A DNA stretch of 38,961 nt from Pseudomonadota bacterium (GTDB taxonomy: Bacteria; Pseudomonadota; Gammaproteobacteria; Acidiferrobacterales; Acidiferrobacteraceae). The DNA lies in NCBI GenBank assembly GCA_021841585.1, contig JAKBUS010000022.1, forward strand, positions 1 through 38,961. The letters run 5' to 3'. Both the position numbers and the translations under genes were made by a program. The notes under the pieces were generated by a model. The model ran no database searches and was not told the DNA's origin. It was given only the letters and a program-made list of their open reading frames with translations. Positions 25,681-33,160 of this stretch are shown here, one piece after another; within the stretch, counting starts at the first letter, position 1, and each line of letters begins with the position of its first letter.

Positions 25681-27672
25681 TCATGAATCTTGCCCAAGGA
25701 GGCCGCGCAGACCCTTCAGGTGGGATTCGCCGTGCGCGAGGCGCTCCTCGGGGGGCTTTTCCTCGCGGCCATCCCAAATCAGGTCCTCGGCGGGGATCTC
25801 GCCGAGAAAGCGGCTCGGACTGGTTTGTTGAGGGGCCCCTTGGCGACGCCGCCGCCGGGCATAGCTCATGGTCAGCGTCTGGCGCGCGCGCGTCATGCCG
25901 ACATAGGCCAGACGGCGTTCTTCCTCCACACCGCTTTCGATAAGGCTTGTGCGATGCGGAAGCAGGTCCTCCTCTAGGCCCACGAGAAAGACGTGGGGGA
26001 ATTCCAGGCCTTTGGCGGCATGCAGCGTCATAAGCCGCACGCTTTGGCCGTCTGGCTCCCGGTCCCGGTCGCCCATGCCGTTTAGGATGAGCTGCGAGAC
26101 GACCTCGTCGAGCGTGCGCCCGCTTGCCTCCTCGCCGAGCCGGTCGACCCACGCCAGGAATTCCTCGAGCAACGCAAGCCTTCGGCGCCCCGTGCGGTTG
26201 TCGCCGGCCGCCTGCAGGGCGTGCCCCTCATACCCGACCTCGCGCAAGGCCTCGCGCAACAGCGCGCCCGGGGCCATGCTGCGCGCCTTGACACTCAAAC
26301 CCTCCATGAGGACCCCGAAGCGCTGCAGGGCCGCCGTTTGCGGGGCGGCGAGGTGCTGCGCGAGCCCCAGTTCCTGGCAGCAGCGCAGCAGCGGCTGGCC
26401 GCGGCGATGGGCATAGTCACGCAGGCGCTCGACGGTCGAGGGCCCGACTTCGCGCTTAGGAATGTTGCAGACACGCAGGAATGCCGCATCGTCTGCGGGG
26501 TTGTGAATGAGACGCAGATAGGCCACCGCGTCCCGCACCTCCACGCGATCGAAAAACGAGGTGCCGCCACTCAAGAAATACGGGACGCGATGTTCGCGCA
26601 GGACCTGCTCCAGGGGCCGCGCCTGATGATTTCCCCGGTAGAGGATGGCGTAGTCCCCGAACTCCGCGCGGCGCACGAACTTGTCATGCAAGAGCGCGGT
26701 GACGACGCGGATCGCCTCATGCTCTTCATCGTCGGCCACCAGGACCTTCAGGGGATCGCCGAAGCCAAACGCGCTCCAGAGCCGCTTTGGGAACATGTGG
26801 GGATTGTTGCCGATCACCGCGTTTGCGGCCTTCAGGATACGCCCGGTCGAGCGGTAATTCTGCTCGAGTTTTATGACCTTAAGGCGCGGATTGTCGCGCG
26901 CCAGGCGTTCAAGGTTCTCGGGGCGCGCGCCGCGCCACGAGTATACCGACTGGTCATCGTCGCCGACCGCCGTGAAGGCCTCGTCGGCGAGCGCGCCCGC
27001 CAGGCGGTATTGGCCATCGTTGGTGTCCTGGTATTCATCGACCAAAAGGTAGCGCAGGCGCTCGCGCCAGCGGGCCCGCGCCGCGGCATCCTCGGTCAAT
27101 AGCCGTGCCGGGAGCAAGATGAGGTCGTCGAGATCTATGGCGTTGTAGGCGCGCAGCCGTTCCACATAGTCGGCATAGATGGCGCCGCCGTCGGGCGATT
27201 CGAGGGCCGCCGTCGCGGGGGGGATGCCGGCATCCTTCCAGGCGCGCACGCGCTGCGTGATCTCCTCGGCCGGGGTGTCGCTACGCAGCCGCTCCCGGCA
27301 CAGGTCCTTGATAAGTGCCTCGGCATCACGTGGATCCAGCAGGGTAAAACCGCGCCGCAGACCGAGGGTCTCCGTTTCCTCGCGGATGATCTTGAGTCCT
27401 AGGGCGTGAAAGGTAAGGACGCTCAGGCCTCGGCGGGCGGTCGCTGGCAGCAGGCTGCTGGCGCGTTCGCGCATCTCGCGCGCGGCCTTGTTGGTGAACG
27501 TGACCGCGGCAATGTGCGCGGGGTCATGGCCGCCGTGGGTGATCAGATAAGCGATCTTGCGGGCGATCACCGTGGTCTTGCCGCTGCCGGCACCGGCCAG
27601 GACCAGCACCGGCCCATCGATCAGCCGCACGGCCTCGCGCTGCTGGTCATTCAGTCCCTCGAGGATCTTCAC
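25681..27672 (-). CDS. rep: Rep, ATP-dependent 3'-5' DNA helicase (superfamily 1)
   Basis: Rep clears proteins ahead of replication forks. The product is about 663 residues, close to Escherichia Rep (673). Helicase motifs in order: Q motif LNDQQREAV; motif I LAGAGSGKTTV; Ia VTFTNKAAREM; motif II LLVDEYQDTN; motif III GDDDQSVYSWRGARPEN; motif IV LEQNYRSTGRIL; motif V MTLHAAKGLEFPHV; motif VI EERRLAYVGMTRAR. Rep-specific blocks include ILYRGNHQARPLEQVL and YFLSGGTSFFDR, and the end matches Rep (EERLAHGESHL). A GTG at 27672 fits the family start; a longer frame from a TTG at 27702 adds ten residues. It stands alone, with a 478-base gap upstream. Confidence 0.96.
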   Translation of the reverse strand: MKILEGLNDQQREAVRLIDGPVLVLAGAGSGKTTVIARKIAYLITHGGHDPAHIAAVTFTNKAAREMRERASSLLPATARRGLSVLTFHALGLKIIREETETLGLRRGFTLLDPRDAEALIKDLCRERLRSDTPAEEITQRVRAWKDAGIPPATAALESPDGGAIYADYVERLRAYNAIDLDDLILLPARLLTEDAAARARWRERLRYLLVDEYQDTNDGQYRLAGALADEAFTAVGDDDQSVYSWRGARPENLERLARDNPRLKVIKLEQNYRSTGRILKAANAVIGNNPHMFPKRLWSAFGFGDPLKVLVADDEEHEAIRVVTALLHDKFVRRAEFGDYAILYRGNHQARPLEQVLREHRVPYFLSGGTSFFDRVEVRDAVAYLRLIHNPADDAAFLRVCNIPKREVGPSTVERLRDYAHRRGQPLLRCCQELGLAQHLAAPQTAALQRFGVLMEGLSVKARSMAPGALLREALREVGYEGHALQAAGDNRTGRRRLALLEEFLAWVDRLGEEASGRTLDEVVSQLILNGMGDRDREPDGQSVRLMTLHAAKGLEFPHVFLVGLEEDLLPHRTSLIESGVEEERRLAYVGMTRARQTLTMSYARRRRRQGAPQQTSPSRFLGEIPAEDLIWDGREEKPPEERLAHGESHLKGLRGLLGQDS

Positions 27673-27904
27673 AAGCGCCCCGCCACACAAGGACGGCCGC
27701 AAGCCGGTGTCGAGACCAAGGGCAGCAAGGCCAAGGGCTTTAGGGGTACGATCGATACGCGCGGCACGCCCGCAGTCTAGCGAGGTCTTGGTGCACCGAC
27801 AATCTTGACAGCGCGTACCCGGACATGCGCGCTATCGCCTACGCTCGGGTGGTGCCGTTTGCCAAGCGCATCCTGCATCGTGGGCCGCGGACTACCCCTC
27901 TTGT

Positions 27905-28150: not shown

Positions 28151-29647
28151 TCACAGCGATATCGTCTCCATGTGCGGGACGTACTCCTCGGGGGCCGGAA
28201 AGTTGCTCAGGTCTTTAGCGATCGCCGCGCGCAGGAAGGAGTCCACCCACCAGAAGATGTCATACTCGCGCACGAAGCGCTTGAGCTTGTGCATGCGCGC
28301 GCGCCGCTCCCCGGGGCCCATGGTGATCGCCCGCTGGATGGCCTCGGCGACCTCTTCGACATTATAAGGATTCACGAGCAGCGCGCCCTTTTGCAGCTGC
28401 GCGGCGGCGCCGGCGAACTCAGAGAGGATCAGCACGCTGTTATTTTCGGGGGTGGCGGCACAGAATTCCTTGGCGACGAGATTCATGCCGTCTTTGAGAG
28501 GGGTGATGAGCGCGATCTCGCAGGCGCGGTAATAGGCCAAAAGCTCCGTGCGGCTCAAGCTGCGGAAGATGTAGTGGATGGGGACCCACCCCGATTGCGT
28601 GAACTGGCCATTGATCTCGCCCACCAGCCGCTCCATTTCCATCTTGAGCGCATTGTATTTGGGGATGTCCTCGCGGCTCGGCACGACCACCTGGATAAGC
28701 GTGGTGCGGTGGTGCAGCTCGGGGAAGCGCTGGAGGGCGTTGCGGAAGGCCTCGAATCGATGACAGATCCCCTTTGTGTAGTCGAGCCGGTCGACGCCCA
28801 GCAGGACCTGACGGCCGGGTAGGTCCTCGTGGAGTTCGCGGGCCTTACGCACCACCGGCTCGGTCTTGCTGCCGCGCGCGAATTCCTGATAGTCGATGCC
28901 GATGGGAAAGGTGCCTACGCGCAGCGTGCGGTTCCCGGCGCGTATGGTGATGACCTGCCCCTTGCCGCTCACCGACAGGTCCGGGGCGATCAGGCGCACG
29001 CATTGCAGGAAATTGCGCCGGTCACGCAGGGTCTGGAATCCGAGCAGATCGTATTCAAGCAGCGCGCGCAGCAGCGGAAAGCGCCATGGCAGCTTCATGT
29101 AGATGTCGGGCGACGGGAACGGGATGTGGAGGAAAAAGCCCATGCGCGCCGTGATGCCCTGCGCGCGCAGCTCCTGGCCGACGTTCATCAGATGATAGTC
29201 ATGGATCCAGATGAAATCGCCGGGACGTACGTTGTGCATGATGACGTCGGCGAATCGACGATTGACGCGGTTATAGGCATCCCAGTAGCGCGGCACAAAA
29301 GTGCAGTGCGACTGTAAGTCGTGAAAGAGCGGCCAGATGACCTCATTGGCGAAGCCGTGGTAGAAATCCTCCTTGTCGCGCTGGTCGAGCGCTACCGGTT
29401 TCAGCGTGTAGCCGGAATGGCGCGTCGCCTCGTGCAACAGTCCCGCAAGCGTCAAGGGATCGGCCTCCGACGTGCCGGGCCACCCGATCCAGACCCCGCC
29501 GCGATTGCGCAGTACCGGAGCCAGCGCGCTCACAAGCCCACCGCTGCCCGGGGTGAAGGTCCACTGGTCATCGAGCCGCTTTACGACGATCGGCAACCGA
29601 TTGGAAACGACGACGAGCCTGTCGCCACCTTGGGTCATGTCGTTCAT
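28151..29647 (-). CDS. otsA: OtsA, trehalose-6-phosphate synthase (GT20)
   Basis: OtsA joins UDP-glucose and glucose-6-phosphate to give trehalose-6-phosphate. The 498-residue product has N-terminal VVVSNRLPIVV, GGLVSALAPVL and WIGWPGT, then WIHDYHLMNVG, FFLHIPFPSPDIY, the donor-site motif VDRLDYTKGI, ITPLKDGMNLVAKEF and LILSEFAGAAAQL, all conserved in GT20. Trehalose is a compatible solute and general stress protectant. The ATG overlaps the mscS stop (ATGA), so otsA is the last gene of an otsB-mscS-otsA operon. Its downstream side ends in the repeat-bearing gap. Confidence 0.97.
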   Translation of the reverse strand: MNDMTQGGDRLVVVSNRLPIVVKRLDDQWTFTPGSGGLVSALAPVLRNRGGVWIGWPGTSEADPLTLAGLLHEATRHSGYTLKPVALDQRDKEDFYHGFANEVIWPLFHDLQSHCTFVPRYWDAYNRVNRRFADVIMHNVRPGDFIWIHDYHLMNVGQELRAQGITARMGFFLHIPFPSPDIYMKLPWRFPLLRALLEYDLLGFQTLRDRRNFLQCVRLIAPDLSVSGKGQVITIRAGNRTLRVGTFPIGIDYQEFARGSKTEPVVRKARELHEDLPGRQVLLGVDRLDYTKGICHRFEAFRNALQRFPELHHRTTLIQVVVPSREDIPKYNALKMEMERLVGEINGQFTQSGWVPIHYIFRSLSRTELLAYYRACEIALITPLKDGMNLVAKEFCAATPENNSVLILSEFAGAAAQLQKGALLVNPYNVEEVAEAIQRAITMGPGERRARMHKLKRFVREYDIFWWVDSFLRAAIAKDLSNFPAPEEYVPHMETISL

Positions 29648-30738
29648 GGCACCTCCTTTGCGATAGGTCCCGGCAAGGGCTCTGTATGGGCCACCACCTG
29701 GTGAGCGAACTCGATACCCTGCTCGTGGAAGGTATGGAAAATGGCCAGGTTGATGGCGTGCTGAACGTCCCTGTAGGCGTCCCCGTAAGTCTCCCGGACG
29801 CTGTATGCTACCTCGAAAAGCAGCCCTTGGGGCTGGTAGTCCATAAAATGCGCGCGCAGGAAGCGTGCGCGGTTGTCTTTGCGCACCACGCCCTCGATGA
29901 GGGTTGCGGCACGCGCCAAGGCCTCATGGCCACTCTCATAGGTAAGATAGAGTGTAGACACGAGCGTGCGTTCGCGCATCCGCTTGTAGTTGCGGATGCG
30001 GCTTTTGACGACATCGGAATTGCTGATGATGATCTGCTCGCCCGATGGGCTGCGCAGGCGCGTCGTCTTCAGGCCGATGCGCTCGACCGTTCCGGCATAG
30101 GCATCAATGGCAATCGGGTCATCGAGCACGAACGGCTTGTCGAACAGGATCCAAAGCGACGCCAGGAAATCAGCCAGCGTGCTTTGCACGGCAAGCGCCA
30201 ACGCGATGCCACCCACGCCAAAGCCCGCCAGCAGGGCGGTGACGTTCACGCCCAGATTGCTGAGTACCGCAAGCATGAGAAGCAGCCACAGGAGGATGGT
30301 GGCAATGAGCCCCATGGCCACTACGATCGTGCTTCGCTCCCCATCATGGCTGCGCGCTCGGTAATGATCGATGCTGGCGTTGATGAATGCGTGGCCCCAT
30401 AGCGCCGTTTGCACGAACAGCGCGGTTATGACGACGTCGCCAAGCAGTGCTTGGCTCGGACCCGGGAGTGTCAGGCGCTCGCAGGCGGCGGCCGCGGCGA
30501 GCGTCGCCAAAAACCAGGAATGGGTGTGGCGCGCGGCCTTATCGAGGAATACTGGCCAGTTCGCGCCACCGCGCGCGGTGGCCACCAGGATCCTCCGGCT
30601 TACGCGCAGGCCCGCCTTCAAGAATACGAATATCACCCCAAAGATCAGGGCGACGGTGATCCAAGCCAGGGCCGAGTGCCCGGAAAAGCGGTAGTGCGCG
30701 AGCCCCTGGCCTATGTATTGCCAGTAGTATGTGGTCAT
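29644..30738 (-). CDS. MscS-family mechanosensitive channel
   Basis: The 364-residue protein has about five hydrophobic segments in the first 190 residues. The pore helix TM3 is Gly/Ala-rich (LLAGFGVGGIALALAVQ) and is followed by STLADFLASLWILFDKPF. The beta domain includes GTVERIGLKTTRLR and GEQIIISNSDVV, typical of MscS. Extra N-terminal helices beyond the three of Escherichia MscS resemble the YbdG/YnaI-like class. Such channels release solutes on hypo-osmotic shock. The ATG at 30738 overlaps the otsB stop (ATGA); a GTG seven codons upstream is less likely. Its stop overlaps the otsA start, so this gene is inserted between the two trehalose enzymes in one operon. Confidence 0.94.
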   Translation of the reverse strand: MTTYYWQYIGQGLAHYRFSGHSALAWITVALIFGVIFVFLKAGLRVSRRILVATARGGANWPVFLDKAARHTHSWFLATLAAAAACERLTLPGPSQALLGDVVITALFVQTALWGHAFINASIDHYRARSHDGERSTIVVAMGLIATILLWLLLMLAVLSNLGVNVTALLAGFGVGGIALALAVQSTLADFLASLWILFDKPFVLDDPIAIDAYAGTVERIGLKTTRLRSPSGEQIIISNSDVVKSRIRNYKRMRERTLVSTLYLTYESGHEALARAATLIEGVVRKDNRARFLRAHFMDYQPQGLLFEVAYSVRETYGDAYRDVQHAINLAIFHTFHEQGIEFAHQVVAHTEPLPGPIAKEVP

Positions 30739-31508
30739 GGCTTTACGGCGGCCATCCACGATGCGAGAAAGGCGTGCAGCTCATCCGGCGGACGCAGCCA
30801 CAGATGGGCACGCGTGTCGCGCAGTCTATCGCGCACAAGCACCCCAAGCCCGGTTGGCGGGACCGCCATGAACGCATCCTCGTCGGTCAAATCGTCCCCG
30901 AGATAGGCCATGATCGCCTGCGGGTGGCGTGTAACGAGGTCGGCGACCGCGGTGCCCTTGTCGTGACCGCTTACGCGGAATTCATAGCCGCCATCGAAGG
31001 CGAGCGCGCAAACATCGGCAGGGAGCGTGGTGGCGATAGCGCGCGCAAGCTCCTGCAGGCGCGCGCGGCCATCGGGCTGTTCACCCCGCCAGTGGATCGC
31101 CACGGTCCCGTATTTGCGTTCAAGCGCGTGCTCGAATCCGGCATCTACGACGCGCGCGGCGCTGGCGTCGAGCCATTGCCGCGACGATTGCCTGAGCGCG
31201 GCGCGGGTAAGCCGCCCACACGGCGCGAGATGCTCCTGCCCATGCGCCCCAAATATCTCCACGTCTTGTAGGGGTATGCGCGCCGCCAGCTCCGCCGCTG
31301 GACGTCCGGTGACGAACGCGATGCGTGTGGCATGCTGCTGGATGCCGGCTAGCAACGGGGCGATGCCGGGATAAAGGACCGCGTCTTCGCGGCGGGCGGT
31401 GAACGGCGCGAGCGTGCCGTCGTAGTCGAGCACAAGCAGCCGCTCGCCGGCTGCACGCAGCCTCTCAAAGAATGGCTCGGGGGGTCTTGCCGGGTCCAGG
31501 GTCTTCAC
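30735..31508 (-). CDS. otsB: OtsB, trehalose-6-phosphate phosphatase
   Basis: OtsB removes phosphate from trehalose-6-phosphate to complete trehalose synthesis. The 257-residue HAD-family protein has the catalytic aspartates D28 and D30 in VLDYDGTLAPF, motif II in FVTGRPAAEL, IFGAHGQEHL, the cap region with HWRGEQPDG, motif III Lys in SGHDKGTAV, and motif IV YLGDDLTDEDAF. It is the first gene of the operon with mscS and otsA, and is transcribed divergently from dacB across 233 bases. The ATG at 31508 gives a family-like start. Confidence 0.97.
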   Translation of the reverse strand: MKTLDPARPPEPFFERLRAAGERLLVLDYDGTLAPFTARREDAVLYPGIAPLLAGIQQHATRIAFVTGRPAAELAARIPLQDVEIFGAHGQEHLAPCGRLTRAALRQSSRQWLDASAARVVDAGFEHALERKYGTVAIHWRGEQPDGRARLQELARAIATTLPADVCALAFDGGYEFRVSGHDKGTAVADLVTRHPQAIMAYLGDDLTDEDAFMAVPPTGLGVLVRDRLRDTRAHLWLRPPDELHAFLASWMAAVKP

Positions 31509-31658: not shown

Positions 31659-31688
31659 AGTATAACCTCCGGGCGGCGCGACTGCCAC
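31659..31688 (-). promoter_or_regulatory. Candidate promoter of the otsB-mscS-otsA operon
   Basis: On the minus strand a TATACT -10 box (31659-31664, five of six) lies 18 bases from GTGGCA (31683-31688, four of six to the -35 consensus). It predicts a leader of about 140 bases. TATACT would also suit sigma-S, as expected for osmotic and stationary-phase trehalose genes. Not proven. Confidence 0.35.
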
Positions 31689-31741
31689 GCATGGTCCGCT
31701 GGTGTTTGCAGGCTCAAGGGTGGACAGGTCATACTCGGCCC

Positions 31742-33160
31742 ATGAAAACACGCGTATTATTGACCCTGCTTACGTCTTTCGTGCTGACTTGCGCGCCGGC
31801 ATGGGGTGATCCGCTCCCCGCGTCCCTGCAGCGATTGTTCGCGCGCGAACATGTGCCATTGGGCGGCATCAGCATCTATCTGCGCCGCCTACACGCCCGC
31901 GAGCCGCTGCTTGCCTATCGCGCGCATACCCCCCGGGACCCGGCCTCGGTGATGAAGCTTGTCACCGCACTCGTGAGCCTGTACGCGCTCGGGCCAGCCT
32001 ACACGTGGACCACCGGCGCGTACGCGCGCGGGCCCGTGGTGCACGGGGTGTTGCACGGCAACCTCTATCTGCGTGGCGATGGCGACCCTTACCTCATCAC
32101 GAAATCGTTCTGGAACCTGCTCCATGGGTTGCGGCGCCTCGGCATACGCCGCATAACCGGCAATCTCGTGCTCGATGAACATTATCTGCAAGCCCCACGC
32201 GCAGCACGCGGCTCTTTTGATGGCCTGCGCGACCGCACATACAATGTGCGCCCGCAGGCGCTGCTGGTCAATTTTCAGGCGGTCGAGTTCCGATTTCTTC
32301 CAGGGGCATCGAAGGTACGCGTGCTGCCGGACCCGTATCCGACGACGCTACGCGTGGTCGACGACCTGCGCGCGACGGGCGGGGCGTGCGGAGATTGGCG
32401 GGCCCATGTCCATTTGCAGATTGCCCATGACAGGCGGGACAATGTGGCGGTGTTCCGCGGGCGCTATCCGCGCGCGTGCGGGACGCAACACCTATATCGC
32501 GTCACCGACAACAACCGCCGCTATGTCTCGGGGGTGTTTACCGAGCTCTGGCGCGAGCAGGGAGGGATTTTCAACGGGCGGTTTCTCACCGGGCGGCGGC
32601 CACCCGACGCGCGGCTGCTGTACGCGGTCCATTCACGGCCGCTTGCCGACATCCTGCGCAGTGTCGACAAGTACAGCAACAACGTCATGGGCCGGCTTTT
32701 GGTCATGACCCTCGGGGCGGTGAAGGAAGGGCCGCCGGGGACCACCGCGAAGGGCCTCGCGGTGATGCGTGCGTGGCTTGCCCGTCACCACCTGCGTCTG
32801 CCCCATCTCGTATTGCGTAACGGGGTCGGACTGTCGCGTTCCGAGCGCATTACCGCCGCCGAAGTGGGACGCGTCCTGCGTTATGCCTATAATGGGCGCT
32901 ACATGCCTGAGTATGTCTCGTCGTTGCCGATAGCGGGGATCGACGGGACCTTGCGCTACCGGTTCCTGGGGTCGCCGGTCGCCGGGCATCTCCATGGCAA
33001 GACCGGCACAATCGACGGTGTGGATACCTTGGCGGGCTACCTGCAGCGCGGGCGGCGTCGCTATATCGTCGTGGTGCTGGAGAATTATCCCGCGGCTGAT
33101 ACGGAATCGGGGTTCCGGGCCGAAGACGGGGTCATCAAGTGGCTATATGCCCGCAAGTGA
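31742..33160 (+). CDS. dacB: DacB-type D-alanyl-D-alanine carboxypeptidase/endopeptidase (PBP4, S13)
   Basis: The 472-residue protein has a Sec signal peptide (basic start, hydrophobic core, cut near AWG-DP). The penicillin-binding motifs are SVMK at 69-72 in [14 protein letters not shown] at 312-314 in KYSNNVMG, and KTG at 420-422 in [18 protein letters not shown]13 enzymes cut the D-Ala-D-Ala end or cross-bridges of peptidoglycan in the periplasm. [12 protein letters not shown] near residue 112 is typical of the family. The ATG at 31742 is preferred over an upstream start because it gives a clean signal peptide. Citrate synthase starts ten bases after the stop. Confidence 0.95.

Follow-up and report, generated by a model that had tools for sequence, protein, structure and literature searches.

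The otsB-mscS-otsA locus

The window (the whole stretch of 38,961 nucleotides analysed here) carries on its minus strand a gene for an MscS-family channel between otsB and otsA, and these three genes probably form an osmotic-stress operon that co-expresses trehalose synthesis with a tension-gated safety valve. A sequence-only reading had proposed this gene order with an ATGA overlap at each junction, which the sequence and the Pfam matches bear out; the span it gave (29644-31508) takes in otsB and mscS but leaves out otsA, which reaches to 28151. The parts of the locus are:

30735..31508, minus strand: otsB, trehalose-6-phosphate phosphatase (T6PP) of the HAD type (PF02358, TIGR00685, matches to T6PP structures in the PDB)
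29644..30738, minus strand: mscS-family channel gene, 364 amino acids from the ATG at 30738 (PF00924 and PF21088 above cut-off, PDB profile matches)
28151..29647, minus strand: otsA, GT20 trehalose-6-phosphate synthase, 498 amino acids (PF00982, TIGR02400, PDB trehalose-6-phosphate synthases)
30735..30738, minus strand: ATGA overlap of otsB stop and mscS start (from the sequence; a small overlap is retained in relatives)
29644..29647, minus strand: ATGA overlap of mscS stop and otsA start (from the sequence; retained in nine genus members)
31659..31688, minus strand: weak sigma-70-like site upstream of otsB (promoter scan, the only minus-strand match in the region)

The 3′ end of otsB reads ...AAGCC-ATGA, its TGA being overlapped by the mscS ATG at 30738, and that of mscS reads ...GTGCC-ATGA, its TGA being overlapped by the otsA ATG at 29647. 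Within the 3′ end of mscS, a strong Shine-Dalgarno-like sequence (AAAGGAGG) precedes the otsA start, and nine genus members have a closely matching version of it; the mscS start has no obvious Shine-Dalgarno-like sequence of its own, and for these reasons the first junction (otsB/mscS) would be the most plausible place for translational coupling. The earlier suggestion that the channel is translated jointly with both enzymes may thus hold for mscS and otsB, which are plausibly coupled, but would fit otsA less well, given its own AAAGGAGG. The promoter scan of both strands of the region gave two matches against 0.9 expected, which is not significant. The operon is flanked downstream by a Rep-type helicase gene (25681-27702, minus strand) and upstream by a PBP4/dacB gene (31691-33160, plus strand); look-alikes of both lie at the same places in genome G053 (locus L080), so this neighbourhood is old.

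Identity of the three proteins

OtsB scores 55.9 bits against Pfam Trehalose_PPase (PF02358; cut-off 27) and 74.3 bits against the TIGR00685 T6PP model, which exceeds its cut-off of 68.05; it has the HAD motifs DYDGT and GDDLTDED and matches T6PP structures in the PDB. OtsA scores 482 bits against Glyco_transf_20 (PF00982; cut-off 32.5) and 539.7 bits against TIGR02400, slightly below the cut-off of 564.85, and it aligns along its whole length with PDB trehalose-6-phosphate synthases at 3e-112, with VDRLDYTKG and KDGMNLVAKEF in positions corresponding to those of the solved enzymes. Thus, save for the inserted channel gene, a GT20 gene and a HAD-type T6PP gene lie adjacent on the same strand, as in an otsBA operon. 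OtsA was rejected as a glucosylglycerol-phosphate synthase, since its 324.6 bits for that model (cut-off 569) lie far below its score for TIGR02400, and another gene of the genome passes that model.

The channel protein exceeds the cut-offs for both the MscS beta domain (MS_channel_2nd, 63.8 bits, cut-off 20.2) and the TM2/3 domain (MS_channel_1st, 30.3 bits, cut-off 23.1), which places it in the MscS family. Its single sequence matches that same family in the PDB, and a profile of 12 relatives strongly matches the solved heptamers of the family: an MscS/YnaI chimera (5e-31), YnaI itself (2e-30) and E. coli MscS (2e-26). The best solved relative by profile is YnaI, which is named a low-conductance channel. 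A pore helix (ALLAGFGVGGIALALAVQSTLADF) accompanies the MscS beta domain, and residues 169-190 of the window protein (LLAGFGVGGIALALAVQSTLAD) make up a glycine/alanine-rich helix with a hydrophobic gate; G174, G176, G177, L182 and Q185 are invariant in the channel alignment (A1). By hand alignment, I178 and L182 stand at what we take to be the hydrophobic gate positions of E. coli MscS, where YnaI has L and M; such MscS-like rather than YnaI-like gate residues are suggestive only. The chain of 364 amino acids (343 in YnaI) ends shortly past the MscS core. It shares the MscS beta domain, pore helix and, as predicted from the family, the vestibule with E. coli YnaI and MscS, but its identity to them is weak, so that their gating and selectivity are not transferable to it. 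An AlphaFold2 model from two sequences was too poor (pLDDT 45.6); it was discarded and carries no structural claim.

Distribution of the arrangement

MscS and OtsA were searched for in 60 relatives and the gene neighbourhoods were then read; the order sample comprises 57 genomes, the window genome and 56 others. In 22 of these 57, mscS lies directly before otsA, and they belong to four families (f1, f5, f6 and f7): nine are in the genus, eight in f7, three in f5 and two in f6. The cultivated Sulfuricaulis limicola (G023) is among the genomes with the arrangement, and a further genome, additional to the 22, has otsB-mscS at a contig end (G012). Conservation of this extent excludes chance. Searching other genomes for the gene order had been set as a check on the first reading, and the order is thus found in the 22 as well as in other families (below); a contig scan with the single channel protein had returned one close relative only. 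In genomes whose OtsA belongs to the same type as that of the window, the spacing between mscS and otsA is -8 to +44 nt.

Some linked genomes carry mscS-otsA alone, with no otsB upstream. This is so in f6, where G031 has a fused beta-phosphoglucomutase/T6PP gene after otsA; a further gene after the fused one resembles a GH65 phosphorylase and is a candidate for that function. Two f7 genomes, one of them G023, have a longer OtsA type with an N-terminal membrane segment. In G023 (L067: 3419-5710) and G039, the OtsA domain is fused to an N-terminal part of ∼280 residues that starts with a membrane-helix-like stretch, the gene lying directly after otsB-mscS.

The MscS subfamily was found at E ≤ 1e-60 in 31 of 370 class genomes. 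Beyond the order, its gene is linked to ots genes in two genomes of f103, two of f139 and one of f122, and mscS is adjacent in four of the eight class genomes outside the order that have the window's OtsA type. In the wider phylum the subfamily lies mostly away from ots genes, and none of the further loci read in a phylum-wide sample was ots-linked. A TreT-like glycosyltransferase gene precedes otsB in f139, in one f103 genome and in G053 (called in G053 by best match to the TreT model, below its cut-off, and in the others by sequence resemblance), which marks these clusters as trehalose units. It lies directly upstream of otsB-mscS-otsA in L080 (6773-8685), L165 (5936-7839) and L167 (3503-4744); in L080 and L165 a conserved gene of ∼220 codons precedes it in turn. 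The trehalose cluster is larger at these loci.

Loss, selection and other channels

Four genus members (G001, G007, G010 and G013) have kept otsB and otsA with mscS missing and a gap of 210-472 bp between them, so the channel is dispensable for trehalose synthesis. The gap of G013 holds mscS codons 5-127 split over two frames (E 3e-22), and those of G001 and G010 hold a short stretch matching codons ∼250-265 (DNA E 7e-7 and 3e-5); no mscS remnant is detectable in the gap of G007. The remnants in the other three genus members, flanked by intact otsB and otsA genes, lie at L048: 2995-3466, L046: 1055-1500 and L047: 1072-1500. The sister genera (G014-G017) have no mscS at the ots locus.

Comparisons among genus members gave dN/dS values of 0.13-0.27 for mscS, 0.14-0.20 for otsB and 0.04-0.07 for otsA. 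Like otsB, mscS is under purifying selection; it is a working gene, but its rate of evolution exceeds that of otsA. On a tree of 71 proteins, the linkage label changes six times (21.7 times in shuffles), and at least four of these changes are forced by well-supported branches. A single clade of all linked channels was rejected (p-AU 6e-7), on a quickly built tree in which the genus sits on a long branch. Linkage of mscS to otsA is clustered on the tree, yet it was gained or lost more than once.

No MscL gene was found in the window genome, which has three genes with an MscS domain, or in any of the 14 genus genomes, and all four sampled sister-genus genomes have MscL and no ots-linked mscS. 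This pattern fits valve replacement, in genomes that are few and related; in the Sulfuricaulis-type genus g9, three genomes (G023, G039 and G043) have MscL and the linked channel together. Of the four genus members without the operon mscS, three retain just one MscS-type gene and lack MscL, so these genomes can do without the channel.

Proposed function and alternatives

Co-regulation of mscS with otsB and otsA is well supported by the gene anatomy and its conservation, and the original proposal that synthesis and channel stand under one control is upheld by the many genomes in which the genes overlap or abut. The osmotic-stress reading sets out from what is observed here: the identity of the three genes, their overlaps, the conservation of this arrangement, purifying selection and the absence of MscL. 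A single transcript would be induced by osmotic upshift; OtsA would make trehalose-6-phosphate and OtsB would dephosphorylate it to trehalose, and the cell would produce trehalose while loading its inner membrane with channels. On a sudden downshift, membrane tension would open the channel, and small solutes including trehalose would leave, averting lysis. MscS channels are largely unselective. In Halomonas elongata, survival of downshock depends on MscS, and export of 80% of the ectoine continued in a strain lacking all mscS genes (PMC7174268); because of that low selectivity and this export, venting of trehalose by the channel, or specificity for it, is something that we infer. It is unlikely that the locus goes further and is a self-contained upshift/downshift module, its channel dose-matched and tuned to trehalose, to which some families add TreT and a membrane-anchored OtsA; if it were, synthesis of the solute and a valve reserved for trehalose would evolve and be regulated together.

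The channel might instead be a general stress membrane protein, such as a YnaI-like low-conductance ion pathway with negligible trehalose flow. We regard this as doubtful. In its favour, YnaI is the nearest solved relative by profile, and 80% of solute export in H. elongata is independent of MscS (PMC7174268); the gate residues I178 and L182 hint at the contrary. Steady export of trehalose into the periplasm, comparable to the handling of glutamate by MscCG in Corynebacterium, would suit the tight coupling of mscS to both biosynthetic genes, and a metabolite-secreting channel of MscS type does exist (MscCG for L-glutamate, PMC7835871); the 364 amino acid chain has no MscCG-like C-terminal extension and shows no sign of selectivity, however, and such a role is quite improbable. 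Little probability attaches, too, to a passenger gene inserted by chance and retained through inheritance and convenience of expression only. The repeated losses of mscS with otsBA intact, the faster evolution of its protein than of OtsA and the long genus stem branch are what a passenger might show, whereas the purifying selection and the linkage in several families, with six label changes against about 22 in shuffles, speak against one.

Comparison with known systems

E. coli otsB and otsA likewise form one osmotically induced operon for the trehalose-6-phosphate route (PMC5818414), but with no channel gene between them; its mechanosensitive channels have genes of their own that are induced in salt and in stationary phase, in the case of MscL via RpoS (PMC3302805). 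Osmolyte synthesis and safety valves thus lie in separate E. coli genes with overlapping inducing stresses, whereas here they would share one operon. That otsBA is usually just two genes, as first stated, is true of E. coli but not of Spiribacter salinus, in which one additional gene also lies between otsB and otsA (PMC5818414), there for a glycoside hydrolase 15 and here for a channel. Operons of otsBA, MscS channels and a gene between otsB and otsA are therefore already known; an MscS gene in that place is apparently new, no report of otsB-mscS-otsA having been found in the literature searched (openly licensed papers only).

To our knowledge, E. coli YnaI and MscS are not encoded with osmolyte synthesis. 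MscCG of Corynebacterium glutamicum, which carries an extra C-terminal part, resembles the present channel as an MscS-type protein with a role in releasing one specific small metabolite (trehalose release being a proposal here), and we know of no biosynthetic operon that contains it. Recurrence of the operon join across families makes it testable whether a mechanosensitive channel can serve one compatible solute, and the natural mscS deletion variants within one genus are ready comparisons.

A further cluster, on contig C85 of genome G000 (L074: 4789-8143, minus strand), consists of gpsA, a HAD phosphatase gene and a gene whose GT20 product scores 633 bits against the glucosylglycerol-phosphate synthase model, above the cut-off of 569. 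This cluster contains no channel gene and is likely a second compatible-solute operon.
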